In this document: piece by piece, positions 10,059 to 29,607 of the stretch
Numbering within the stretch: position 1 is the stretch's first letter
How the letters are laid out: every line of letters starts with the position of its first letter
NCBI RefSeq assembly: GCF_027213645.1
Contig: NZ_JAPWGL010000003.1
Location: 806,001 to 870,000, forward strand
Length of the DNA stretch: 64,000 bases
DNA from: Pedobacter rhodius
Lineage (GTDB): Bacteria > Bacteroidota > Bacteroidia > Sphingobacteriales > Sphingobacteriaceae
Direction: 5' to 3'
Notes under the pieces: model-generated
Databases searched by the model: none
Told to the model about the DNA's origin: nothing
The model's input: only the letters and a program-made list of their open reading frames with translations
Program-made: the position numbers and the translations under genes

Positions 10059-10801
10059 AGATATCCATTATAACCGTTGTTTTTAATAACGAGTCGACAA
10101 TTTCGACGGCAATTGAATCCGTATTAAATCAAACTTATAAGGACGTAGAATATATTATTATTGATGGAAAATCGACTGATAATACCCTCGAAATCATTAA
10201 TAAATATGCCTCATCTATCAGTAGAATTGTATCAGAGCCTGATGGGGGAATATACGATGCGATGAATAAAGGCATAGCTTTAGCAACCGGAGATGTAATC
10301 GGTATATTAAATTCTGATGATGTGTATGCAGATAATAACGTATTGAGCAACATCATGCAGGAGTTCAACGAGCCAACAATTGATGTGGTTTACGGAAACC
10401 TGGTTTATGTGAAAAGTAACGATTTAAACCAGGTGGTTCGGAAGTGGCAATCCAAAAGTTACTACCCCAATTTTTTTGAGGATGGTCACGTCCCGCCACA
10501 CCCATCTTTATTTATAAGGAAAGAAGTGTATGCCAGGGTAGGCACTTTTAATCAAAAGATGAGGTTGGCGGCAGATTATGAATTTATGCTCCGCCTGTTT
10601 AAATTACATAATTTCAAGAGTAAATATATTGACAAGTTATTTGTAAAAATGCGATTAGGCGGTGCGACTAATGGCAGCGTGAAAAATATTATCGATGGTA
10701 ATAAAGAAATTCTGAAGGCCTGGAAAAATAATCATTTGAAAGCGCCATTTTTGCTTATGCCTAAAAGGATACTTAAACGATTAATTCAATTTATAAAATG
10801 A
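10055..10801 (+). CDS. Family 2 glycosyltransferase (WcaA-like)
   Basis: GT-A transferase of 248 residues, with the start chosen at the ATGA overlap (10055) because the preceding 17 codons of the longer frame lie in the GT4 gene. Motifs are 'ISIITVVFNNESTI', 'IIDGKSTDNT' at about 35-44, 'SEPDGGIYDAMNKG' at about 63-76 and 'LNSDDVYAD' at about 87-95, the combination typical of the colanic-acid-like WcaA/WcaE GT2 subgroup. It overlaps the next SDR gene by ATGA (10798-10801). It probably catalyses an early step in locus A repeat-unit assembly. Confidence 0.9.
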   Translation: MKISIITVVFNNESTISTAIESVLNQTYKDVEYIIIDGKSTDNTLEIINKYASSISRIVSEPDGGIYDAMNKGIALATGDVIGILNSDDVYADNNVLSNIMQEFNEPTIDVVYGNLVYVKSNDLNQVVRKWQSKSYYPNFFEDGHVPPHPSLFIRKEVYARVGTFNQKMRLAADYEFMLRLFKLHNFKSKYIDKLFVKMRLGGATNGSVKNIIDGNKEILKAWKNNHLKAPFLLMPKRILKRLIQFIK

Positions 10802-11685
10802 GGATTCTTTTAACCGGCGCTACAGGATTTTTGGGATTAGCTATTCAACGTCATTTTGAAGGTCATGAAGTAGTCACTGTTGGCAGGAGTAATTGTGAGG
10901 TAATTGCACATCTCGAAAAAGTCATCCCTGTTTTGCCTGAGGCCGATTTAGTCATTCATGCGGCCGGGAAAGCACATTCCGTACCTAAAACCAAAGCACA
11001 GGAAAAAGAGTTTTTTGATGTTAATGTTAAAGGTACTGAGAATTTGCTCAAGACCCTGGAACGTTCTGCCACGTTACCAGAGTCATTTGTTTTTATCAGC
11101 TCAATTGCTGTTTATGGTGCTGAGGAAGGTATTCTTATAGATGAAAGTTTTCCATTGTCTGCCAACGATGCTTATGGTAAAAGTAAAATTGGAGCCGAAA
11201 AGCTTATCATCGACTGGTGTGAGTTAAATAAAATTAACTGTACAATTTTGCGTTTACCGCTTCTGGCCGGCTCAAATCCTCCGGGAAATCTCCGTGCAAT
11301 GATAAAGGGAATTCAGAAGGGCTATTATGTTAATATCGCTGGAGGAAAAGCAAAAAAAAGCATGGTCATGCGGGAGGATGTTGTTTCAATAATTTTAAAG
11401 GCTTCACAAAAAGGGGGTATTTATAATCTTACTGATGGTCATCACCCTTCTTTCGCGGAACTTTCTGAAGTTATTTCAAAGCAATTAAATAAGCCCAATC
11501 CCTTTAACATCCCGCTTTGGTTTGCGAAACTGATGGCATTCGGAGGTGATTTAATTGGTAATAAAGCCCCAATTAACAGCAAAAAACTCGGTAAAATTAC
11601 TAAAGATCTTACCTTTGCAGATGATAAAGCGAGAACAGCGTTAGGATGGAAGCCTGAGCCTGTACTTGAACGATTTAAAATATGA
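10798..11685 (+). CDS. NAD-dependent epimerase/dehydratase (WbpV-like 4-reductase candidate)
   Basis: Extended short-chain dehydrogenase/reductase acting on a nucleotide sugar. 'GATGFLG' (about 7-13) is the NAD(P)-binding GxxGxxG, 'FISSIAVYG' at about 99-107 holds the catalytic Ser, and 'YGKSK' at about 124-128 gives the Tyr-x3-Lys pair. The gene stands directly before a WbpL-like initiating transferase and a WbpM-like dehydratase. In Pseudomonas O-antigen clusters the same trio makes UDP-QuiNAc or UDP-FucNAc and loads it on undecaprenyl phosphate; the SDR reduces the 4-keto intermediate. Function as such a reductase is inferred from this order. It could also be a 4-epimerase. Confidence 0.82.
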   Translation: MRILLTGATGFLGLAIQRHFEGHEVVTVGRSNCEVIAHLEKVIPVLPEADLVIHAAGKAHSVPKTKAQEKEFFDVNVKGTENLLKTLERSATLPESFVFISSIAVYGAEEGILIDESFPLSANDAYGKSKIGAEKLIIDWCELNKINCTILRLPLLAGSNPPGNLRAMIKGIQKGYYVNIAGGKAKKSMVMREDVVSIILKASQKGGIYNLTDGHHPSFAELSEVISKQLNKPNPFNIPLWFAKLMAFGGDLIGNKAPINSKKLGKITKDLTFADDKARTALGWKPEPVLERFKI

Positions 11686-12656
11686 ATTTTACCATCTCTT
11701 TAATTCTTCTAGTGGTGCTCTTTTTTCTAATGCTGCTTTATATTAAAACAGCAGAGAAATTTAAGATAATTGATAAACCTAACAGAAGAAGTTCTCATAC
11801 CGATCATATCGTAAGGGGTGGTGGCATCATCTTTCCAATAGCGATTTTAACACAATTTCCGATTTTTGGCTTTCAAAATTTTTGGTTTGTAGCAGGCCTG
11901 GTTCTAATCAGCCTCATTAGTTTTATCGATGATGTCAAGCCGGTTGCTAATCGAATCCGTTTGTTTTTTCACTTAGCTGCCGTTGCATTGCTCTTTTATC
12001 AATTACAGGTTTTTGAATTGCAATGGTATTTTATCTTCCTGGCTTTCTTCTTTGTGATTGGTACAATAAACGCGGTCAATTTTATGGACGGCATCAATGG
12101 AATAACAGGAGGATATGGTTTGATAACGCTCATTTCGCTTTTATATATTAACCAGACAGTGGAATTTACCGATTCGAACTTAATTCTTTGTGCAATTATG
12201 GCGGTTCTTGTCTTCAATTTTTTCAATTTCCGTAAAAAAGCTAAATGTTTTGCCGGCGATGTGGGTAGCATAAGCCTTGCCTTTATATTGGTTTTTTTTC
12301 TGTTGCAGTTAATAATAAGCACTCAGAACATCACCTACATCATGCTGCTTTTAGTCTATGGTTTGGATGTGGTTAGTACCATAATGTTTAGGTTGATTCG
12401 GAAAGAAAATATTTTTGAAGCGCATCGTAAACATTTTTATCAATTTTTAGTAAATGAGAAAAAAATGCCTCATTTGGCAGTCGCCATCTTATACAGTATG
12501 GTACAATTGGGCATTAACTTTTGTTTAATTCGGTTTCCATTCAGCTCTTTAGCTTATCTTCTTATCATTTTATCGATATTAGGCATGTTTATTGTTATAT
12601 TGCGCTTTGTTTTCGAAGGTTATCGGCGATTAACAAAGAATGCTGGTATAGACTAA
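11682..12656 (+). CDS. Polyprenyl-phosphate N-acetylhexosamine-1-P transferase (WbpL/WecA family)
   Basis: Integral membrane enzyme of the MraY/WecA family that transfers a HexNAc-1-phosphate from UDP-sugar to undecaprenyl phosphate, starting a lipid-linked oligosaccharide. About 10 membrane helices. Key motifs: 'SFIDDVKPV' at about 82-90 (Asp pair), 'FMDGINGITGG' at about 135-145, 'FAGDVGSISL' at about 188-197 and 'AHRKHFYQ' at about 243-250. Preference for QuiNAc or FucNAc is inferred from the neighbouring SDR and dehydratase. This is the initiating enzyme of locus A; locus B has a different type (PHPT) at 37874. Confidence 0.9.
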   Translation: MNFTISLILLVVLFFLMLLYIKTAEKFKIIDKPNRRSSHTDHIVRGGGIIFPIAILTQFPIFGFQNFWFVAGLVLISLISFIDDVKPVANRIRLFFHLAAVALLFYQLQVFELQWYFIFLAFFFVIGTINAVNFMDGINGITGGYGLITLISLLYINQTVEFTDSNLILCAIMAVLVFNFFNFRKKAKCFAGDVGSISLAFILVFFLLQLIISTQNITYIMLLLVYGLDVVSTIMFRLIRKENIFEAHRKHFYQFLVNEKKMPHLAVAILYSMVQLGINFCLIRFPFSSLAYLLIILSILGMFIVILRFVFEGYRRLTKNAGID

Positions 12657-12671
12657 CAATTAAGAAATACT

Positions 12672-14615
12672 TTGTTTAGCAAAATCAATATCGTACCCCG
12701 CTGGCTTATATTTATCATTGATTTGGTAATCTGCCTTGTTTCTTTAGGGATAGCTTACTTCATTAAATATAATTTCGATCTTACCGGTGTAGTATTCTCT
12801 TCTTTCGGACGGAATATTTTAATTACAACTATTATTAATATTGGTGTATTTCTAAATGTGAAATCCTATTCTGGTATTATACGTTACACCAGTGCTCAGG
12901 ATACCTTTCGCATTTTATTTGCTGTTTTAATCAGCAATTTTATTCTTTTTGGAGCTAATTTGGTGATGGGTACTTTTTTAACTGAGCCACTCATTTCCAA
13001 CATTATCATTGTTGTGAATGGCCTTGTCAGCTTTGTAATGCTCATAACCTATAGAATATTGGCCAAATATTTCTTCATTTACATAAAAAATCTTCACCTC
13101 GACAAACTCCGGGTAATTATTTATGGCGCAGGTGAGGCTGGGGTGGCTACGAAACGTACTTTCGACCATGATAATCGTGTTAACAAAAATATTATTGCAT
13201 TTGTTGATGATGATGAACGTAAAGTTGGTAAAACAATTGATGGTATCCGGATTCTGGAAGCAAAGAATTTAGAAAAACTTATTGCGGAACATGAAGTTGA
13301 TGAAGTTATTTTTGCAGCTTATAGTATTCCCGTTGATAGAAAAAACGAAATTGTCGATGCCTGTTTAGAGCATGATGTAACCGTTCTGAATATTCCGCCC
13401 TCTAATGTTTGGATAGATGGTAAATTGCAGACTTCACAAATACAAAATATTAATATTGAAGACCTGTTAAATCGTAAGAGTATTGAAATTGATGTTGAAG
13501 GAATAAGAAACCAATTAAGAAATAAAAGGGTTCTGATTACCGGAGCTGCGGGTTCTATCGGAAGCGAGATTGTTCGGCAATTGCTGAAGTTCGAACCCAG
13601 CTTGATCATATTAAACGACCAGTCTGAAACAGCCTTACATGAGCTTTACCTGGAGCTTGAAGAAAATAACCATAGCTATAATTTTCACGCATTTGTAGGT
13701 GATGTGAGAGATAATAAAAGAATGGAGCACCTTTTTAAAACCTACAAGCCCCAATATGTTTATCATGCCGCCGCTTATAAGCACGTGCCTTTAATGGAAG
13801 ACAATCCAAGTGAGGCCATAAAAACAAACGTGTCTGGAACCAAGATTGTTGCCGATTTATCAATCAAATATGGTGTGCGTAAATTTGTAATGATTTCGAC
13901 AGATAAAGCCGTAAACCCAACAAATGTTATGGGGGCGTCTAAGCGTATTGCAGAAATTTATGTGCAATCCTTAAATAATACCCTTAGTGATCACAACCAT
14001 ATTTTTAGCAATGGTTTAAGTTATATCAATGAAATTGAAGTGAAACCAATTACTAAGTTTATCACGACACGTTTTGGAAATGTTTTGGGATCAAGTGGTT
14101 CGGTTATTCCAAGGTTTAAGCAACAAATCGAAAAGGGAGGGCCTGTAACGGTTACGCATCCTGAAATAACCCGATACTTCATGACCATTCCCGAAGCCTG
14201 CCGGTTAGTACTGGAAGCGGGAAACATGGGCTCAGGAGGTGAGATATTTATCTTTGACATGGGTAAATCGGTTAAGATTGTAGAATTAGCCAAAAAAATG
14301 ATCAGATTGGCCGGTTTGATTCCAAATCAGGATATCAAAATTCAATACACAGGGTTAAGACCAGGAGAAAAATTATTTGAAGAACTTCTCAATGATAATG
14401 AAAATACCATGCCTACCCACCATCACAAAATTATGATCGGTAAGGTAAGGGAATATGTATTTAATGATGTTGAAAAACAAATTTACAGATTAATTGACTG
14501 TGCCAAATTAAATGAAAACCGACAAGTGGTCGTCATGATGAAAGAACTGGTACAGGAATATAAAAGCAACAATTCTATTTATGAAGAACTCGACCATGCC
14601 GATGAAACAAACTAA
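12672..14615 (+). CDS. Membrane UDP-GlcNAc 4,6-dehydratase-like (WbpM/PglF/CapD family)
   Basis: Large nucleotide-sugar dehydratase converting UDP-GlcNAc to the 4-keto-6-deoxy sugar. The 647-residue protein has four N-terminal membrane helices (about 10-120), a CoA-binding-like domain with 'YGAGEAG' at about 154-160, and a C-terminal SDR domain with 'ITGAAGSIGSE' at about 287-297. The catalytic region reads 'MISTDKAVNPTNVMGASK': Ser, then Met where soluble SDRs carry Tyr, then Lys, i.e. the SMK triad known for WbpM/PglF-type enzymes. The start is a TTG at 12672, since no in-frame ATG precedes the conserved first membrane helix. It completes the initiation trio with the two genes upstream. Confidence 0.9.
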   Translation: MFSKINIVPRWLIFIIDLVICLVSLGIAYFIKYNFDLTGVVFSSFGRNILITTIINIGVFLNVKSYSGIIRYTSAQDTFRILFAVLISNFILFGANLVMGTFLTEPLISNIIIVVNGLVSFVMLITYRILAKYFFIYIKNLHLDKLRVIIYGAGEAGVATKRTFDHDNRVNKNIIAFVDDDERKVGKTIDGIRILEAKNLEKLIAEHEVDEVIFAAYSIPVDRKNEIVDACLEHDVTVLNIPPSNVWIDGKLQTSQIQNINIEDLLNRKSIEIDVEGIRNQLRNKRVLITGAAGSIGSEIVRQLLKFEPSLIILNDQSETALHELYLELEENNHSYNFHAFVGDVRDNKRMEHLFKTYKPQYVYHAAAYKHVPLMEDNPSEAIKTNVSGTKIVADLSIKYGVRKFVMISTDKAVNPTNVMGASKRIAEIYVQSLNNTLSDHNHIFSNGLSYINEIEVKPITKFITTRFGNVLGSSGSVIPRFKQQIEKGGPVTVTHPEITRYFMTIPEACRLVLEAGNMGSGGEIFIFDMGKSVKIVELAKKMIRLAGLIPNQDIKIQYTGLRPGEKLFEELLNDNENTMPTHHHKIMIGKVREYVFNDVEKQIYRLIDCAKLNENRQVVVMMKELVQEYKSNNSIYEELDHADETN

Positions 14616-23013: not shown

Positions 23014-24045
23014 ATGAATTACTCGCTCAAGGTTATAGATAAGCGTCAAGAAACTAATGATACAGTTACCTTGTGTTTTAAACAACCCGGACTAAAAAAG
23101 ATTAAATATCTTGCCGGTCAATATCTGACATTGATATTCAGGATCAACGGCAGGCGCTACATTAGGCCCTATTCATTTTCTTCATGTCCCATAGTTGACG
23201 AGTATCTTGAAGTTACTGTAAAACGCGTTTTGAATGGGATTGTATCAAATCATATTAATGATGAAGTTAAGGTGGGTGATACAATAGAGGTGATGTCTCC
23301 TATGGGTGACTTTATATTTGAAGAAGATGTTACTTATCGTGATGTCTATTTTTGGGGCGTAGGTAGTGGGATTACTCCTCTAATTTCGATTATAAAATAT
23401 ATTCTATCTTCAATTGAAAATGTAAAAGTACATTTGAATTATGGTAATAGAAACCATGATACCACTATCTTTAGAAATCAGATAGAAGAACTGAAATCTA
23501 AGTATCCGGATCGTTTAATTGTAAGGCACTTTCATACTAAGTTTATTATTGAAGAAAATAATCCCCACATTATCCAGGGAAGAATTGATTTTGAACGAGC
23601 AATACAAATATTGGAAGAAAATGAAAGTTTAAGTTTATCAGCACATTATATTTGTGGGCCACCCGGATTAAAGGAGTCTGTAAAAGATGCCTTAGCTAGT
23701 AAGGGGGTAGATATTGAAAATATTTACACAGAAGATTTCGAATTAGTTAAAAATCCTGAGGATTTCAAGGATATAAAAACACAAAATGTCGTTGTTGATT
23801 TTAATGGCACCCATTTTGGCTTGGAGGTTGTTAAAGGTAAGAGTATTTTGGAGGCAGCACTCGACAGCGATATAGAATTACCTTACTCTTGCCAAACGGG
23901 TAATTGTAGTACTTGCAAAGCAAGGGTGTTGACTGGCGAAGTAAAAATGATTGGTTTAAGTAAAGAACGAAGTGACTTAAGCGATGGAGAATTTCTACTC
24001 TGTTGTTCACATCCACTAACAGAAAACGTTTACATAGAATTATAA
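23014..24045 (+). CDS. Flavin/[2Fe-2S] reductase, DdhD/AscD-like role, domain order permuted
   Basis: Likely NAD(P)H reductase passing electrons to the C-3 dehydrase RfbH. N-terminal FAD domain with 'RRYIRPYSFSSCP' at about 46-58 (RxYS flavin motif), then NAD-binding domain with 'WGVGSGITPLISI' at about 114-126 and 'YICGPPGLK' at about 210-218, then a C-terminal plant-type ferredoxin with Cys pattern C-x4-C-x2-C (SCQTGNCSTC) at about 294-303 and a fourth Cys in 'LLCCSHP'. Known AscD/DdhD carry the ferredoxin domain at the N-terminus, so this one is permuted, like PaaE-type reductases. Role inferred from position 2 nt before rfbF. Confidence 0.82.
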   Translation: MNYSLKVIDKRQETNDTVTLCFKQPGLKKIKYLAGQYLTLIFRINGRRYIRPYSFSSCPIVDEYLEVTVKRVLNGIVSNHINDEVKVGDTIEVMSPMGDFIFEEDVTYRDVYFWGVGSGITPLISIIKYILSSIENVKVHLNYGNRNHDTTIFRNQIEELKSKYPDRLIVRHFHTKFIIEENNPHIIQGRIDFERAIQILEENESLSLSAHYICGPPGLKESVKDALASKGVDIENIYTEDFELVKNPEDFKDIKTQNVVVDFNGTHFGLEVVKGKSILEAALDSDIELPYSCQTGNCSTCKARVLTGEVKMIGLSKERSDLSDGEFLLCCSHPLTENVYIEL

Positions 24046-24047
24046 AA

Positions 24048-24824
24048 ATGAAAGTAGTAATATTAGCAGGCGGGCTCGGAACGAGGTTAATGGAGGAGAC
24101 CGAAGCAAGGCCAAAACCAATGGTTGAAATCGGAGGAAAGCCTATTTTATGGCACATTATGAAAATATATGAGGCTTATGGCTATAATGATTTTGTATTG
24201 TGTCTTGGCTATAAAGCCCAAAGTATTAAAGAATATTTCCTGAATTATTACCTTTATAATTCTGACGTTTCTATTGATATTGAAAAAAATAAAGTTGATG
24301 TCCATTTTTCAAATTCTGAATCATTTAAAGTAACCTTAGTTGACACTGGATTAACCACAAACACGGCAGGAAGAATCAAGAAAATTCAGAAATATGTAGA
24401 GGGAGAAACCTTCATGTTAACCTATGGTGACGGTGTTGCTGATATAAATATTAAAGAATTAGTAAATTTCCACAAACAACATGGAAAACTAGCTACCCTA
24501 ACGACTATTCAAACCCCAGGCAGATTCGGAAACATCGAAATGGATACTAATGGCAATGTTCAACACTTTGTTGAAAAACCTCAAGGTGATGGGATGTGGA
24601 TTAACGGAGGATTCTTCGTGTTAGAACCGGGAATATTCGATTATTTAAAAGAGGAAGTTGATGATATACAATGGGAGAATAAACCACTAAAGGAAATTGC
24701 ACAAGATGGTCAATTAAGTGCTTTTAGACATTCTGGCTTTTGGAAACCAATGGACGCACTTAGAGATAGGATTGAGCTTGAAAAGCTATGGAGTAGTGGA
24801 GAAGCAAAATGGAAAATCTGGTAA
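24048..24824 (+). CDS. rfbF: Glucose-1-phosphate cytidylyltransferase
   Basis: Makes CDP-D-glucose from glucose-1-phosphate and CTP, the entry step to CDP-3,6-dideoxyhexoses (also called DdhA). 258 residues from ATG 24048, matching the family length. 'ILAGGLGTRLMEET' at about 5-18 is the nucleotide-binding loop, 'RPKPMVEIGGKPILWH' at about 21-36 is the conserved continuation, and 'YGDGVADI' at about 126-133 holds the Mg-binding Asp. 'WINGGFFVLEPG' at about 183-194 is a family block. It precedes rfbG by 1 nt, as in Salmonella and Yersinia. Confidence 0.96.
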   Translation: MKVVILAGGLGTRLMEETEARPKPMVEIGGKPILWHIMKIYEAYGYNDFVLCLGYKAQSIKEYFLNYYLYNSDVSIDIEKNKVDVHFSNSESFKVTLVDTGLTTNTAGRIKKIQKYVEGETFMLTYGDGVADINIKELVNFHKQHGKLATLTTIQTPGRFGNIEMDTNGNVQHFVEKPQGDGMWINGGFFVLEPGIFDYLKEEVDDIQWENKPLKEIAQDGQLSAFRHSGFWKPMDALRDRIELEKLWSSGEAKWKIW

Positions 24825-24825
24825 T

Positions 24826-25929
24826 ATGATGGAAAAATTAAGAAGTACCTATCAAGGGAAAAAAGTTTTAATTACAGGTCATACTGGATTTAAAGGCGCT
24901 TGGCTATTAAAAACACTTAATATGTTGGGTGCAGAAATTAAAGGTTACGCATTAGAGCCTGAAACTAAATCCGACCTATATCATCTTATTGATGGGAATG
25001 ATATTTGTCATTCTGTAATAGGTGATCTGCGTAATCGTGAGAAATTAAAGAAAGAAGTATTTGATTTTCAACCTGATTTTATCTTTCATTTGGCTGCTCA
25101 GCCATTAGTAAGGCTATCATATGAAATTCCTTCAGAAACATTTGAGGTCAATGCGATTGGAACTGCCAACTTGTTAGATGCAGTTAGAATATTAGAAAAC
25201 AAATGCTCAGTTGTATTAATTACTACAGATAAGGTTTATTACAATAATGAATGGGATTATCCGTATAGAGAGAATGATCGTTTAGGAGGATATGATCCCT
25301 ATAGTGCAAGTAAAGCCTGTGCAGAATTGGTAATCGATTCATATCGAAACTCTTTTTTTAATATCTCTAAATATAACGTTCATCAAAAAGGGATAGCAGT
25401 AGGTCGTGCAGGTAATGTTATTGGTGGAGGAGATTGGTCAAAAAATAGATTGATTCCGGACATAGCAAAAGCTTTATTAGAGGATAATCAGATTATTTTG
25501 AGAAATCCTGGTTCCGTTCGTCCTTGGCAACACGTATTGGAGCCTATTGGAGGATACCTGTTGTTAGGAGCAGCTCTTTCTGTTGAACCTGTGAAATTTG
25601 GAGATGCATATAACTTTGGTCCTAATTCTAGCGATGCACTTTCGGTAGAGGAAATGTTGAAACTGGCTATTAAATGTTGGGGATCAGGTACGTTTAGAGT
25701 TGAGAGAGACGCCAATCAACTACATGAAGCGGGATTGTTGAAGTTGGATATTAGTAAGGCTACCGCCGATTTGAAATGGTTGCCAAAATGGAATGCTGAT
25801 TCAACAGTAAAGAAGACAATTGAGTGGTATCAGCATTTCTCTGCTCACCCTGCTGAAATAAAGGGGTTTACTGAACGTCAAATAAACGAATACTTCCATC
25901 TAACTGAATTAGAGATAAATCAACAATAG
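24826..25929 (+). CDS. rfbG: CDP-glucose 4,6-dehydratase
   Basis: SDR enzyme converting CDP-glucose to CDP-4-keto-6-deoxyglucose (DdhB). 367 residues from ATG 24826 (a second ATG follows at 24829). '[13 protein letters not shown]' at about 17-29 is the NAD motif, with the FKG-W variant typical of this enzyme; 'TTDKVYYN' at about 131-138 includes the catalytic Thr-Asp, and '[13 protein letters not shown]' at about 155-167 gives Tyr-x3-Lys. 'RPWQHVLEP' at about 234-242 is another signature. It follows rfbF by 1 nt and leads into rfbH. Confidence 0.96.
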
Positions 25930-25973: not shown

Positions 25974-27275
25974 ATGTTAAAAAATATTACTGATCCTGCT
26001 TTTGAAGAATATATAAGATCTTCAGCGAGAAGTAAAACTAAACAAACTATAATAGCAGGTACGAACTATATACCAGTAACTGGAAAAGTTTTGGATGAAG
26101 AAGATATTCTTCTGAGCGTCGATGCAACGATGGATGGGTGGTTGACAGCTGGACGATTTGCAAGTCAGTTTGAGCACGATTTTGCTCAATATTTTGGGTC
26201 GACTAAGTCATTGCTAGTAAATTCTGGATCTTCTGCAAATTTGGTCGCTTTCTATGCATTAACATCTCCAAAATTAGGAGAGCGGGCTATAAAACCTGGT
26301 GATGAAGTAATTACTGTTGCTGCAGGTTTTCCAACTACTGTTAACCCAATCATCCAATTTGGAGCCATTCCGGTATTTGTTGATGTTGATATTGCTACGC
26401 ATAATGTTCTAGCAGAAGACATTGAAAAAGCTGTATCATCCAAAACTAAAGCCATTATGATAGCACACTCATTAGGTAATCCGTTTGACTTGGACGAGGT
26501 GATGCGTGTGGCAAAAAAATACAATCTTTGGGTTGTAGAAGATGATTGTGATTCATTAGGCGCAACTTACAAAGGCAAAAAAACAGGGACTTTTGGTGAT
26601 ATTTCTACGTTTTCATTTTATCCTGCTCACCACATTACAATGGGGGAAGGCGGAGCGGTTTTAATTAATAATCCTGAGTTGTCAAAACTAGCAGAAAGTT
26701 TTAGGGATTGGGGTCGTGATTGCTATTGTTTGCCAGGCAAGGATGACACATGCGGGTGTCGTTTTGGACAGCAACTTGGCTCACTTCCCTATGGTTATGA
26801 CCATAAATATACTTATTCACATATTGGTTTTAATTTAAAGGTAACTGATATGCAGGCCGCTTTTGGTGTGTCTCAATTGAAAAAGTTAGATTATTTTGTT
26901 CAACGTAGAAGGGAAAATTATGCTGAATTGTATCAAAGGATGAAAACATTAGAAGATATATTCATCCTTCCAGAGCCAACACCAAATTCTGATCCATCTT
27001 GGTTCGGTTTTCTACTAACCTTGAGGGAGGGTGATTCCAATGATAGGCACATGCTGGTTCAGCATCTTGAAGAAAAAAAAATTGGCACTCGACTTTTGTT
27101 TGGGGGTAATTTGCTGAGACAACCTGCGTATGCAAACATAAATCACCGTGTCGTTGGGGATTTAAGAAATACTGACATAATTATGAATCAATCATTTTGG
27201 TTGGGTGTTTGGCCGGGACTAAACGACAGCCATTATGATTATATTTTAAATGTGTTGCAGAAGTATTTATCATAA
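25974..27275 (+). CDS. rfbH: CDP-4-keto-6-deoxyglucose 3-dehydrase (E1, RfbH/DdhC)
   Basis: PMP- and [2Fe-2S]-dependent dehydrase that removes the C-3 hydroxyl of CDP-4-keto-6-deoxyglucose, the committing step to 3,6-dideoxyhexoses. The aminotransferase fold is clear ('[11 protein letters not shown]' at about 83-93, '[11 protein letters not shown]' at about 187-197). Where aminotransferases have the PLP lysine there is His220 in '[13 protein letters not shown]', the diagnostic change for E1. Iron-sulfur ligands fit Cys250, Cys252 and Cys260 (C-x-C-x7-C), with an extra Cys262. It needs the reductase at 23014 for electrons. 433 residues is a full-length member. Confidence 0.96.
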
Positions 27276-27310: not shown

Positions 27311-28213
27311 ATGAAGGTTTCGCTAATTGGCACAAATGGATTACTATCTAGTAGTATTGGCCTTTATTGTAATAGTAATGGTCATGATCTAAATGTTTAT
27401 GGTCGATCGGCTCCTATTCACCATTCGTTTAATAGACATATTAAGATAAATCTGTTAGATGAAGTAATTGATTACACTGCTTTAGTTAAATCTGATGTAA
27501 TTATTTATTCCGCAGGGGCAGGCATTCAAGCAAATCTAAACCAGGGTGCAGATGTTATATTTGAATTAAATGTCAATGTTCCTATAAAAATATATAATGC
27601 TTTAAAACTGAATGGATTCGAGGGCATATTTATAAGTTTCGGCTCCTACTTTGAAATCGGTGAAAATTTGGACGATAAAAGGTTCTCTGAAGGTGACCTA
27701 TTAACATCTCAGTTGGTCGCTCCGAATGACTACACAGTTTCAAAAAGACTATTAACAAGGTTTTTTAGTTCCACAATTAGTCCATTTAAATTTTATCACT
27801 TCATTTTACCAACAATTTATGGTGAAAATGAATCAGCAAATAGGCTTATTCCTTACACGCTCAAGGCAATCGCCTATAATGATGATTTAGGATTCACCTC
27901 GGGGGATCAGGTACGTCAGTATATATATATTGAAGATGTTGTGGAAGTGATTTTTAGTGCATTAAGAAGTGATATAATTAGTGGGATATATAATATCGAG
28001 GGCGTAGAGGAATTGACGGTTAGAGAATTAGTCTCAAAATTATTTGAACTTAACTCTGTGGATCTCCCCCAAGATACATTTGGTAAGCTTGCCCGTAAGG
28101 ATGTCGGAATGAAAATGCTGAAGTTAGATGGCAATAAGTTGCAAAAGTCGATCGATTATCAACCCCGTACACAAATTGCAGATGTTTTTAAAAAATATGA
28201 TTTTAAAAGATAA
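27311..28213 (+). CDS. SDR reductase, candidate CDP-3,6-dideoxyhexose synthase
   Basis: Extended SDR, 300 residues, likely the final 4-keto reductase forming a CDP-3,6-dideoxyhexose (abequose, paratose, ascarylose or similar). The Rossmann motif 'GTNGLLSSS' at about 7-15 is degenerate: the third glycine is replaced by Ser. 'FISFGSYFEIG' at about 108-118 supplies Ser, and 'DYTVSKRLL' at about 139-147 supplies Tyr-x3-Lys. 'RQYIYIEDV' at about 204-212 is a usual extended-SDR block. It follows rfbH by 35 nt and overlaps the cupin gene by 17 nt. The stereochemistry of the product cannot be read from sequence. Confidence 0.78.
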   Translation: MKVSLIGTNGLLSSSIGLYCNSNGHDLNVYGRSAPIHHSFNRHIKINLLDEVIDYTALVKSDVIIYSAGAGIQANLNQGADVIFELNVNVPIKIYNALKLNGFEGIFISFGSYFEIGENLDDKRFSEGDLLTSQLVAPNDYTVSKRLLTRFFSSTISPFKFYHFILPTIYGENESANRLIPYTLKAIAYNDDLGFTSGDQVRQYIYIEDVVEVIFSALRSDIISGIYNIEGVEELTVRELVSKLFELNSVDLPQDTFGKLARKDVGMKMLKLDGNKLQKSIDYQPRTQIADVFKKYDFKR

Positions 28214-28598
28214 AATAGAGATTATACCTCGAAAATTTTTAAAAGATGAAAGAGGTTGGCTTTTCAAAACTCTTACGGGTACAGAAAAAGGTTTGCCCAA
28301 TTATACAGGAGAGATATACACAGTTTGCGGTTTGCCAAATCAAATTAGAGGTGGTCACTATCATAAAGAGGCCACAGAATGGTTTACAATCATTGGGGGG
28401 GAAGCAACATTGAAGCTCAAAGACATTCTTACTTTAGAAGAGTTAACATTGAAATTGAGCATAGAAGAACCGATAACTATTGTGGTTCCCCCATTGGTAG
28501 CCCATCAATTTGAAAATCCTTCAGATAAGGAATTTTTATTATTAGCGTATTCGAATCTTTTATATGACCCCAAAGACACTATAATATTTAACTTGTAA
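28197..28598 (+). CDS. Cupin nucleotide-sugar isomerase/epimerase (WxcM/FdtA-like)
   Basis: Small cupin of 133 residues from ATG 28197; the longer frame from 28128 lies inside the SDR gene. 'IRGGHYHKEATEWFTIIGGEA' spans the first cupin motif at about 51-70, with the two histidines and the Glu of the active-site pocket, and 'VVPPLVAHQFEN' at about 99-110 is the second motif. Such proteins epimerise or isomerise keto-sugars (RmlC, FdtA, WxcM C-terminal domain). In the ascarylose pathway an RmlC-like epimerase acts just before the reductase, so the pairing here is suggestive. At 133 residues it is shorter than RmlC. Confidence 0.72.
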   Translation: MILKDKIEIIPRKFLKDERGWLFKTLTGTEKGLPNYTGEIYTVCGLPNQIRGGHYHKEATEWFTIIGGEATLKLKDILTLEELTLKLSIEEPITIVVPPLVAHQFENPSDKEFLLLAYSNLLYDPKDTIIFNL

Positions 28599-28599
28599 T

Positions 28600-29607
28600 A
28601 TGGCTTTAGTAGAAAATCCTATTCTAACAATATGTATCCCAACATATAATAGAGCTAATAAAGTTTATGAGTTAGTTTTAGATTTATTGAAATTTGAAGG
28701 AAATGAGATACAGATCGTTGTATTAGATAATATTTCTAATGACGATACAGAGCAGCGATTATCAACAATAAATGACTTGCGGTTCCATTATGTGAAAAAC
28801 AGCGAAAATATAGGAGGGCCATTAAATCACCTTAAAGTTCTTACACTAGGTAATGGATTGTTTTCCTTGCTATGCTTAGATAAAGATTTTATCAATTTTA
28901 AAAGTTTAAAACAATTTTTGGAAAAGCTTTTATCAGATAAAGAAATCGTATTTGGCCATTGTGAACTTAATCTGGTAAGAAGTTCAGTAGATAAACTTTA
29001 TGATAAAGGTTACATGTCTATAAAAAACATGGCTTATCGTTCTCAACATCCTTCAGGAATGTTTTACAGAACAAGTATTTTGAAAAACTTAACCATCTTA
29101 CCAAAGATTTTTGATGAGAGATTAAAGTTTGGTTTTTATCCAGATATACTCAATGGTGAAATGGCAACTAGAGGTAAATCAATGCTATTCAAATCCCCAC
29201 TAGTTTTTACGGAGTCGAAAACAGAATGTGCTAAAACGCCTTCTTTTACTTACGATGAGAATGATGTTTTTTTTGCCCCACGACAACGAATTTTTGAATT
29301 TGATATTTATTCGAAATATATTTTTGAATTGCATTTGTCCAAAAAACTATCAACTAAGCTTATCAAAGTAAACTACTTAAGAAGACTTATGGCAGCAACA
29401 ATAGAATATAGATCAATACTCAAGGATAATGAAGTGTGCCAGCATTATGGAGTGATCTCCAGAAAAGTCACAATAGGGGAGATACTAACAAACGCAAATA
29501 GGTTTACTGATCATTTTCATGAGAATACAAAAAAGGTTAGATTTTTAGACAAATTATATATTACATCAATAGGGCGTCTAATTGTTTTTATAAAATTGTT
29601 TTTATGA
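28600..29607 (+). CDS. Family 2 glycosyltransferase
   Basis: GT-A transferase of 335 residues. 'LTICIPTYNRANKV' at about 8-21 and 'VVLDNISNDDTE' at about 45-56 are the usual GT2 nucleotide-binding elements. The place of the DXD motif is taken by 'LLCLDKDF' at about 89-96, still Asp-x-Asp. The C-terminal half (about 200-335) is unusual and basic, with no membrane helix. It starts 1 nt after the cupin gene and overlaps the next gene by ATGA. A good candidate for the dideoxyhexosyl transferase because of its position right after the CDP-sugar genes, but this is only positional. Confidence 0.82.
   Translation: MALVENPILTICIPTYNRANKVYELVLDLLKFEGNEIQIVVLDNISNDDTEQRLSTINDLRFHYVKNSENIGGPLNHLKVLTLGNGLFSLLCLDKDFINFKSLKQFLEKLLSDKEIVFGHCELNLVRSSVDKLYDKGYMSIKNMAYRSQHPSGMFYRTSILKNLTILPKIFDERLKFGFYPDILNGEMATRGKSMLFKSPLVFTESKTECAKTPSFTYDENDVFFAPRQRIFEFDIYSKYIFELHLSKKLSTKLIKVNYLRRLMAATIEYRSILKDNEVCQHYGVISRKVTIGEILTNANRFTDHFHENTKKVRFLDKLYITSIGRLIVFIKLFL

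Follow-up and report, generated by a model that had tools for sequence, protein, structure and literature searches.

A PF14667 cupin and a short-chain dehydrogenase as a possible finishing pair for a CDP-L-3,6-dideoxyhexose in Pedobacter rhodius

In Yersinia pseudotuberculosis the ascarylose pathway is reportedly completed, after RfbF, RfbG, RfbH and DdhD, by an epimerase and a reductase known as AscE and AscF. The stretch of Pedobacter rhodius DNA analysed here (the window: 64,000 nucleotides, G000:C5:806001-870000, from a genome of 4.68 Mb) carries the same upstream set within a polysaccharide cluster, but its rfbH is followed by genes for a short-chain dehydrogenase/reductase (SDR) and for a small cupin of a type different from the AscE-like proteins of the same bacterial family, which are RmlC-type (PF00908) and lack a metal motif. 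We think it highly probable that this SDR–cupin pair finishes a cytidine diphosphate (CDP)-4-ketosugar, and give about an even chance to the fuller statement that it yields a CDP-L-3,6-dideoxyhexose.

Three further systems invite comparison. CapF/WbjC (Cap5F) of the uridine diphosphate (UDP)-L-FucNAc pathway inverts C3 of its substrate and reduces C4, according to PMC3699295. It shares with the window pair a PF14667 cupin placed after an SDR reductase, in that order, and an epimerise-then-reduce logic on a 4-ketosugar. Unlike CapF proper, an SDR fusion within a UDP-FucNAc operon, the window genes are separate and overlapping, lie in a CDP rather than a UDP cluster and encode Lys, not Glu, five residues after a motif arginine (Arg+5); their C3 centre would be gone after RfbH, and the window SDR is distant, CapF scoring 6–28 bits with the profile of its relatives. 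WbcA (5BUV), which Table 1 of PMC9095892 lists as a CDP-6-deoxy-D-xylo-4-hexulose epimerase, is a CDP-ketosugar epimerase with a similar fold (Z 15.6) and the same Lys, but is RmlC-type rather than PF14667 and has no RfbH step. In Campylobacter jejuni HS:41, PMC12369002 describes an epimerase and a reductase (HS41.18/HS41.19) that act on CDP-4-keto-6-deoxyglucose to give CDP-D-fucose or CDP-6-deoxy-L-altrose; in that system the 3-OH is kept and the epimerase is provisionally annotated as a dTDP-4-dehydrorhamnose epimerase, hence presumably RmlC-type.

The run on the forward strand of the window comprises six genes, in the order DdhD, rfbF, rfbG, rfbH, SDR and cupin (Table 1). The initial annotation had spoken of five enzymes, the DdhD-type reductase having gone unnoted, but its statement that rfbH is directly followed by an SDR and a 133-residue cupin sharing 17 nt agrees with the coordinates of the open reading frames (ORFs); 35 nt separate rfbH from the SDR. 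In RfbH the lysine that binds pyridoxal phosphate is replaced by His (PAHH, 217-220), and the protein has cysteines spaced C192-X57-C250-X1-C252-X7-C260, features which together we take to be the residue pattern of an E1 enzyme (C-X57-C-X1-C-X7-C with His for Lys). DdhD has a Fer2 domain with four cysteines, and a DdhD homologue lies 5' of rfbF in 48 of the 60 rfbH loci covered in the family. The rfbG gene is single-copy in its own genome, where the runner-up match scores 42 bits. Because RfbF, RfbG and RfbH lie far above their NCBIfam cut-offs and the motifs of RfbH and DdhD are intact, C3 deoxygenation should work, as far as sequence can tell. The ascarylose-type upstream set, present in both genes and motifs, is predicted to make CDP-4-keto-3,6-dideoxyglucose. 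The earlier suggestion of an ascarylose-like ending holds to this extent, that an intact pathway to this ketone is followed by an epimerase-fold cupin and a 4-ketosugar-type reductase; it does not hold for the type of cupin, which fails the RmlC model PF00908 (16.1 bits, cut-off 27).

We propose the following route. RfbF and RfbG would provide CDP-4-keto-6-deoxy-D-glucose, from which RfbH with DdhD would remove the C3 oxygen. The cupin, as a metal-motif epimerase of CapF type that holds cytosine through Lys24, would then take the C5 proton beside the C4 ketone and re-protonate from the other face, giving an L-series ketone that the SDR would reduce at C4. Only C5 could be inverted at this point, since C3 would be a CH2 after RfbH, leaving C5 as the sole epimerisable centre beside the ketone. 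The product would be either CDP-ascarylose or the colitose-like L-xylo sugar that differs from it at C4, since C4 stereochemistry is unreadable from sequence. An L-3,6-dideoxyhexose is the most economical product; we infer the reading of CDP by Lys24, C5 as the site, metal dependence, the outcome at C4 and the product itself.

By its sequence the cupin is of the PF14667, CapF C-terminal type with a full metal motif, and not of the AscE/RmlC type. It passes PF14667, the CapF C-terminal domain (cut-off 28.7 bits), whilst its best NCBIfam match, a CapF-type reductase model, reaches 35 bits, far under the cut-off of 500. A profile built from 14 orthologous cupins ranks CapF first (2.5e-12) in a near tie with the bicupin Sll1358 (2.9e-12), followed by oxalate decarboxylases, then FdtA (1.5e-7) and an RmlC-type protein (1e-4). 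Starting from another in-frame ATG, at 28128, the protein would have 156 aa; homologue alignments instead fit the start at 28197. His54, His56, Glu61 and His103 match the HxH...E...H pattern of CapF and form a predicted metal site. Together with Asn107 they fit the canonical cupin motifs, HXH(X)3,4E and H(X)3N, as given in PMC3765361, where RmlC epimerases are said to bind no metal. In RmlC-type cupins, His serves as the base and Tyr as the acid, for C3 and C5 alike (PMC9095892, PMC7949155); the position of the window's Tyr118 is occupied by Trp in CapF and Phe in FdtD.

The initial annotation had also raised a WxcM/FdtA-like cupin, which would make the protein a 3,4-ketoisomerase. FdtA and QdtA do share cupin fold and length with it, and some searches point their way: the cupin passes the PF05523 (WxcM/FdtA) cut-off of 23 with 34.2 bits, a phmmer search of the PDB with its single sequence places the WxcM-like FdtD first (1.6e-6) and CapF third (4e-4), and Foldseek on the AlphaFold2 model of the cupin (predicted local distance difference test, pLDDT, 92.4) is headed by QdtA and FdtD (E ~1e-9). 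PF14667, however, lies 30 bits higher, and the orthologue profile puts CapF over FdtA. The active-site comparison, which that annotation held could overturn an ascarylose-type ending, reveals no ketoisomerase site, since FdtD has Gln for Glu61, Phe for Tyr118 and no residue aligned with His103. The fold leaves the choice undecided: Foldseek places QdtA, FdtD, CapF and RmlC-type proteins within about 1e-9 to 1e-8, and the 50 matches listed with structural Z are led by 3ejk (17.9), a member of the sugar-isomerase family with no function given, with ketoisomerases, RmlC-type proteins and WbcA at 14–16, chains of FdtD, WbcA, MlghB and RmlC type at 15–16, and no CapF. Fold comparison was rejected as a means of assigning the reaction, as it did not tell ketoisomerases, RmlC-type proteins, WbcA and CapF apart. 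Finally, the keto group of a 3-deoxy sugar cannot move from C4 to C3; a ketoisomerase could not act after RfbH because the C3 oxygen is gone. We regard this assignment as very improbable.

RfbH orthologues (E <= 1e-120) are present in 69 of 399 genomes of the family, and rfbH neighbourhoods were covered for 60 of the 68 other than the window's. These 60 loci end in an enzyme dependent on thiamine pyrophosphate (TPP; 28 loci), an RmlC-type epimerase with a reductase (10), an AbeJ-like reductase only (10), an acetaldehyde dehydrogenase-like protein (8) or something else (4); the 133-aa cupin is not among their listed neighbours. In the ten loci with an AscE-like epimerase, as in L127 (159 bits with PF00908), the reductase is RmlD-like in six and AbeJ-like in four. 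An RmlC-type, ascarylose-like solution thus exists nearby, in the same family, and the window uses another. That the window pair is nonetheless a true AscE/AscF pair, merely diverged, is the least credible of the accounts considered. The cupin family does match AscE-like proteins in a profile–profile comparison (probability 97.5 over 109 columns), and both have Lys at Arg+5. Against this, besides the PF00908 score, the cupin profile gives CapF 51–59 bits and AscE-like proteins 24–39, and the latter, present separately in the same family, are 178–180 aa long with H-x-Q where the cupin has H-x-H.

The window's own genome offers no convincing other ending among the classes searched for, which did not include YerF- or RmlD-type reductases. 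The top result of an AscE-like search was an RmlC homologue of 35% identity whose gene adjoins an rmlB-like one, an AbeJ-like search peaked at 29 bits, and a search with the TPP enzyme gave one full-length 36% match of putative function. In the family at large this TPP enzyme (~572 aa, e.g. L101 and L106; presumably YerE-like) is the commonest rfbH ending, and yersiniose-type branched sugars may be common there. In the eight acetaldehyde dehydrogenase loci an acylating acetaldehyde dehydrogenase-like gene lies shortly 5' of rfbH (L092, L115, L123, L128 and L139; in part L112, L116 and L118), with a 4-hydroxy-2-oxovalerate aldolase-like gene recognised in seven of them, perhaps a different route to a carbon-branched dideoxysugar.

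A further line of evidence comes from the residue at Arg+5. This residue closes the motif D-x-R-G-x-x-x-K/E. All 17 cassette cupins have Lys there (the window and 16 orthologues, with a CDP context assumed for L044, L049 and L055, where no rfbG orthologue was seen in the locus DNA examined), as do 10 of 10 AscE-like proteins and the L051 protein of RmlC type. It is Glu in all 14 CapF sequences compared (drawn from the 26 loci L006-L031, the other 12 of which yielded no ORF by the filter applied) and in both RmlC proteins of deoxythymidine diphosphate (dTDP) type. The same contrast is seen between WbcA (DERGEFVKT) and the dTDP enzyme 1ep0 (DERGYFMET). Near the rfbH cluster of Bacteroides fragilis, an RmlC-type protein with Glu adjoins what on inspection looks like a thymidylyltransferase gene, and is probably a dTDP enzyme. 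Guanosine diphosphate (GDP)-heptose epimerases contact phosphate through Arg28 and form a hydrogen bond to guanine through Thr33, as stated in PMC7949155; by numbering, Arg+5 would correspond to Thr33. Lys24 therefore supports a CDP-sugar substrate for the window cupin, in which it would have the structural role of reading cytosine.

The SDR has the Rossmann fold and YxxxK motif of nucleoside diphosphate (NDP)-sugar SDRs. The YxxxK (Y141/K145; 27731-27745) is intact, and the best of five AlphaFold2 models, whose pLDDT values spread from 50 to 83, has the expected NDP-sugar SDR fold. In the nucleotide-binding motif, G7-T-N-G10-L-L-S13 (GxxGxxS, 27329-27349), Ser replaces the third Gly. This degenerate glycine had been noticed in the initial annotation, but it is a trait of the SDR family rather than decay: of ten members, the window's included, eight have Ser or Ala here and two keep Gly. 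In the SDR tree the window protein clades (100/99) with four SDRs of rfbF-rfbG cassettes that lack an adjacent rfbH, its best identity being 57%, to a protein from a Symbiothrix metagenome-assembled genome (MAG). A plasmid collection searched with the SDR gave no match at 1e-8.

Close relatives of the cupin are few. Some cupin match is found in 59 of the 399 family genomes at E <= 0.001, and relatives of at least 50% identity in four (the window's, G173, G280 and G332), of which the window's alone has RfbH; the other family matches listed are mostly CapF-length frames (~370–400 aa), with few short ones. In genus, phylum and class samples, which overlap each other and that of the family, the cupin occurs in 3 of 145 genomes, in 2 of 395 (plus one CapF-length match) and, among 395, in the window alone (plus three CapF-length matches), respectively. 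Scanning genomes with names yielded 14 cupin loci, of which 13 were kept, one being G280 again; L056, a Micrarchaeota cupin of 27% identity, was left out of alignments. The other orthologues number 16 in all. Both rfbF and rfbG lie beside 13 of these (the thirteenth, L057, seen in its extended locus L164), and a window-type SDR beside nine, with a different SDR at L045, L050, L051 and L054. In eight of the nine SDR-bearing loci the SDR and cupin genes abut, overlap or fuse: the overlap is 14 nt in L046, L052 and L053, and in G332 (L033:9647-10954) the two form a single ORF of 435 aa, the CDP-cluster analogue of the CapF architecture. The exception, in Bacteroides fragilis Q1F2 (L047:7181-10362), has the order rfbF-cupin-rfbG-SDR. 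The pairing is on this evidence more than chance, since both proteins have same-order orthologues in other genera. What the sequences show directly is gene content, intact motifs and the conservation of this cassette.

In the locus DNA examined, which is short for L044, L048, L049 and L054, rfbH adjoins none of the 16 orthologues. When the whole genomes were searched, 14 of the 16, several of them MAGs that may be incomplete, gave no RfbH orthologue, the best matches being <= ~44% identical and mostly partial. The two that have one are B. fragilis Q1F2, where rfbH lies in a separate cluster (L165) that also encodes a TPP enzyme and an SDR of YerF-like type, and the Bacteroidales MAG G789, where it lies on a short contig other than that of the cupin. 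In G789 the cupin contig ends in the front part (L049:3204-3460), and the rfbH contig begins with the rear part (L166:1-772), of a DegT aminotransferase gene; with the halves at facing ends the contigs may adjoin, in which case rfbH would be a few kb from the cupin. The rfbF-rfbG-SDR-cupin cassette is scattered mainly over Bacteroidota and mostly works without RfbH, on a 3-hydroxy substrate. Among the open-licence PMC papers listed by literature searches none deals with this cassette, which is no proof that none exists.

Several of these observations weigh against C5 inversion by the cupin in an RfbH pathway. CapF, its nearest characterised relative, is a C3 epimerase. A linked rfbH beside the cupin is seen in the window only, with G789 as a possible exception. 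In an Ignavibacteriales locus (L051:6537-8414) an RmlC-type protein and a PF14667 cupin both follow rfbF-rfbG, which suggests that they have distinct roles there, and the cupin may do what RmlC does not. Asn120 of the window is Asp in all 16 orthologues. The cassette SDR profile ranks YerF-type (66–91 bits) and AbeJ-like (50–71) reductases over the RmlD-like reductases of AscE-type loci (15.5–29.4), and in some rfbH loci an AbeJ-like reductase completes the pathway without a partner. An SDR reductase, RubS3, moreover epimerises (at C3) unaided, according to PMC8152690.

Part of this would be expected if the SDR alone ended the pathway, giving a D sugar (CDP-paratose or CDP-abequose), with the cupin inherited alongside it but showing little or no activity towards the 3-deoxy substrate. 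The preference of the SDR profile for YerF- and AbeJ-like proteins, the ten loci in which an AbeJ-like reductase is the sole recognised ending, the exceptional Asn120 and the physical coupling of the two genes, which would make them travel together, all fit such an account. The cupin, however, keeps all 18 columns invariant in A3, an alignment of 14 cupins including the window's, with the metal motif among them; its end branch is ordinary (0.71, median 0.59), with no sign of decay, and CapF too has Asn at 120. We judge this account unlikely. Asn120 was also considered as an adaptation linked to RfbH, an idea set aside since Asp is found in G595, whose locus has a DdhD remnant, and in G789, whose rfbH is possibly linked, and Asn in CapF.

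It is likewise doubtful that the cupin precedes RfbH in the pathway and, in the manner of CapF, epimerises CDP-4-keto-6-deoxyglucose at C3 (or at C3 and C5), so that the operon would make a 6-deoxy sugar by means of SDR and cupin, with RfbH and DdhD serving a second branch or taking the epimerised ketone. Such a role would agree with the C3 inversion of CapF's cupin-containing enzyme and with the 14 orthologue genomes in which no RfbH was found, where the cupin must meet a 3-hydroxy substrate. But no second reductase that could serve a separate 3,6-dideoxy branch is evident, inspection of the 17.8–39 kb part of the cluster revealing no other SDR (SDRs do occur elsewhere in the genome), and rfbH sits between rfbG and the SDR within one gene run. 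As the ending occurs both with and without the C3 hydroxyl, the chemistry shared by the two settings would be that of our preferred reading, C5 inversion and C4 reduction.

Clues to the history of the ending come from G595 (G595:C2), in which DdhD, in its usual place 5' of rfbF, survives as a remnant (L164:5396-6411) whose frame shifts and is interrupted by stops more than once. Its rfbF-rfbG-SDR-cupin set is intact and no rfbH orthologue was found in the genome, suggesting that the deoxygenation module can be lost from this ending and that a dideoxysugar pathway apparently turned into a 6-deoxysugar pathway. In the window, rfbH and rfbG are up to 89% and up to 74% identical to those of family rfbH operons, the 89% being to the best locus of the genus, whereas rfbF shares ~90% identity with rfbH loci and equally with L034, a cassette lacking rfbH. 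In the cupin tree the window pairs with the Symbiothrix MAG (87/92, below the starred support level, the Symbiothrix branch being long). Either one ending has replaced another or the RfbH module is repeatedly gained and lost; a simple grafting of the ending onto a local rfbH operon may have occurred, but rfbF is as close to the one kind of locus as to the other, and G595 points to loss as well. GC content gives no signal of recent transfer (0.343 for SDR and cupin, 0.354 for the window).

A broader proposal is offered tentatively and at somewhat less than even chances: that this CapF-type, metal-dependent cupin is a CDP-4-ketosugar C5 epimerase, an independent counterpart of AscE, in a switchable cassette that would give CDP-L-3,6-dideoxyhexoses with RfbH/DdhD and CDP-6-deoxy-L-hexoses without them, by loss in the case of G595. 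If so, CDP-sugar epimerases that invert C5 would not all be RmlC-type, stand-alone PF14667 cupins beside rfbF-rfbG would gain a specific assignable reaction, and the nucleotide that such cupins use might be predicted from whether Arg+5, one residue, is Lys or Glu. An ending that acquires and sheds RfbH/DdhD would, in addition, be a compact natural example of surface-sugar diversification.

Table 1. Genes and residues of the dideoxysugar run, in window coordinates
Feature	Position	Strand	Basis
DdhD-type FAD/[2Fe-2S] reductase, RfbH electron donor	23014..24045	+	Pfam FAD_binding_6, NAD_binding_1, Fer2; Cys 293/298/301/331
rfbF, glucose-1-phosphate cytidylyltransferase	24048..24824	+	TIGR02623, 393 bits (cut-off 300)
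rfbG, CDP-glucose 4,6-dehydratase	24823..25929	+	TIGR02622, 462 bits (cut-off 278)
rfbH, CDP-4-keto-6-deoxyglucose 3-dehydrase (E1)	25974..27275	+	NF011936, 699 bits (cut-off 423)
SDR, proposed C4 reductase, 300 aa	27311..28213	+	PF01370, 65.7 bits; ATG start, TAA 28211-28213
PF14667 cupin, proposed CDP-4-ketosugar C5 (or C3/C5) epimerase, 133 aa	28197..28598	+	PF14667, 64.4 bits; stop 28596-28598
SDR/cupin overlap, 17 nt	28197..28213	+	ORF coordinates
Cupin Lys24 codon (Arg19+5), proposed cytosine-reading residue	28266..28268	+	Lys/Glu comparison across cupins
Cupin motif 1, His54-x-His56-x4-Glu61, putative metal ligands	28356..28379	+	Invariant in 14/14 of A3
Cupin motif 2, His103-x3-Asn107	28503..28517	+	His103 invariant in A3, Asn107 variable
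Cupin Tyr118 and Asn120	28548..28556	+	Tyr118 at RmlC acid-Tyr position (hand alignment); Asn120 codon 28554-28556

The cupin gene is followed by one for a GT2-type glycosyltransferase, at 28600, and by more genes of the cluster, including one that on inspection encodes a flippase-like protein. The downstream glycosyltransferases gave no clue to the product, their matches being weak and scattered. Elsewhere in the window, at 10798-14615, an SDR, a glycosyl-1-phosphate transferase and a FlaA1/WbpM-like gene read, again on inspection, like an initiation set of the N-acetylquinovosamine (QuiNAc) type.

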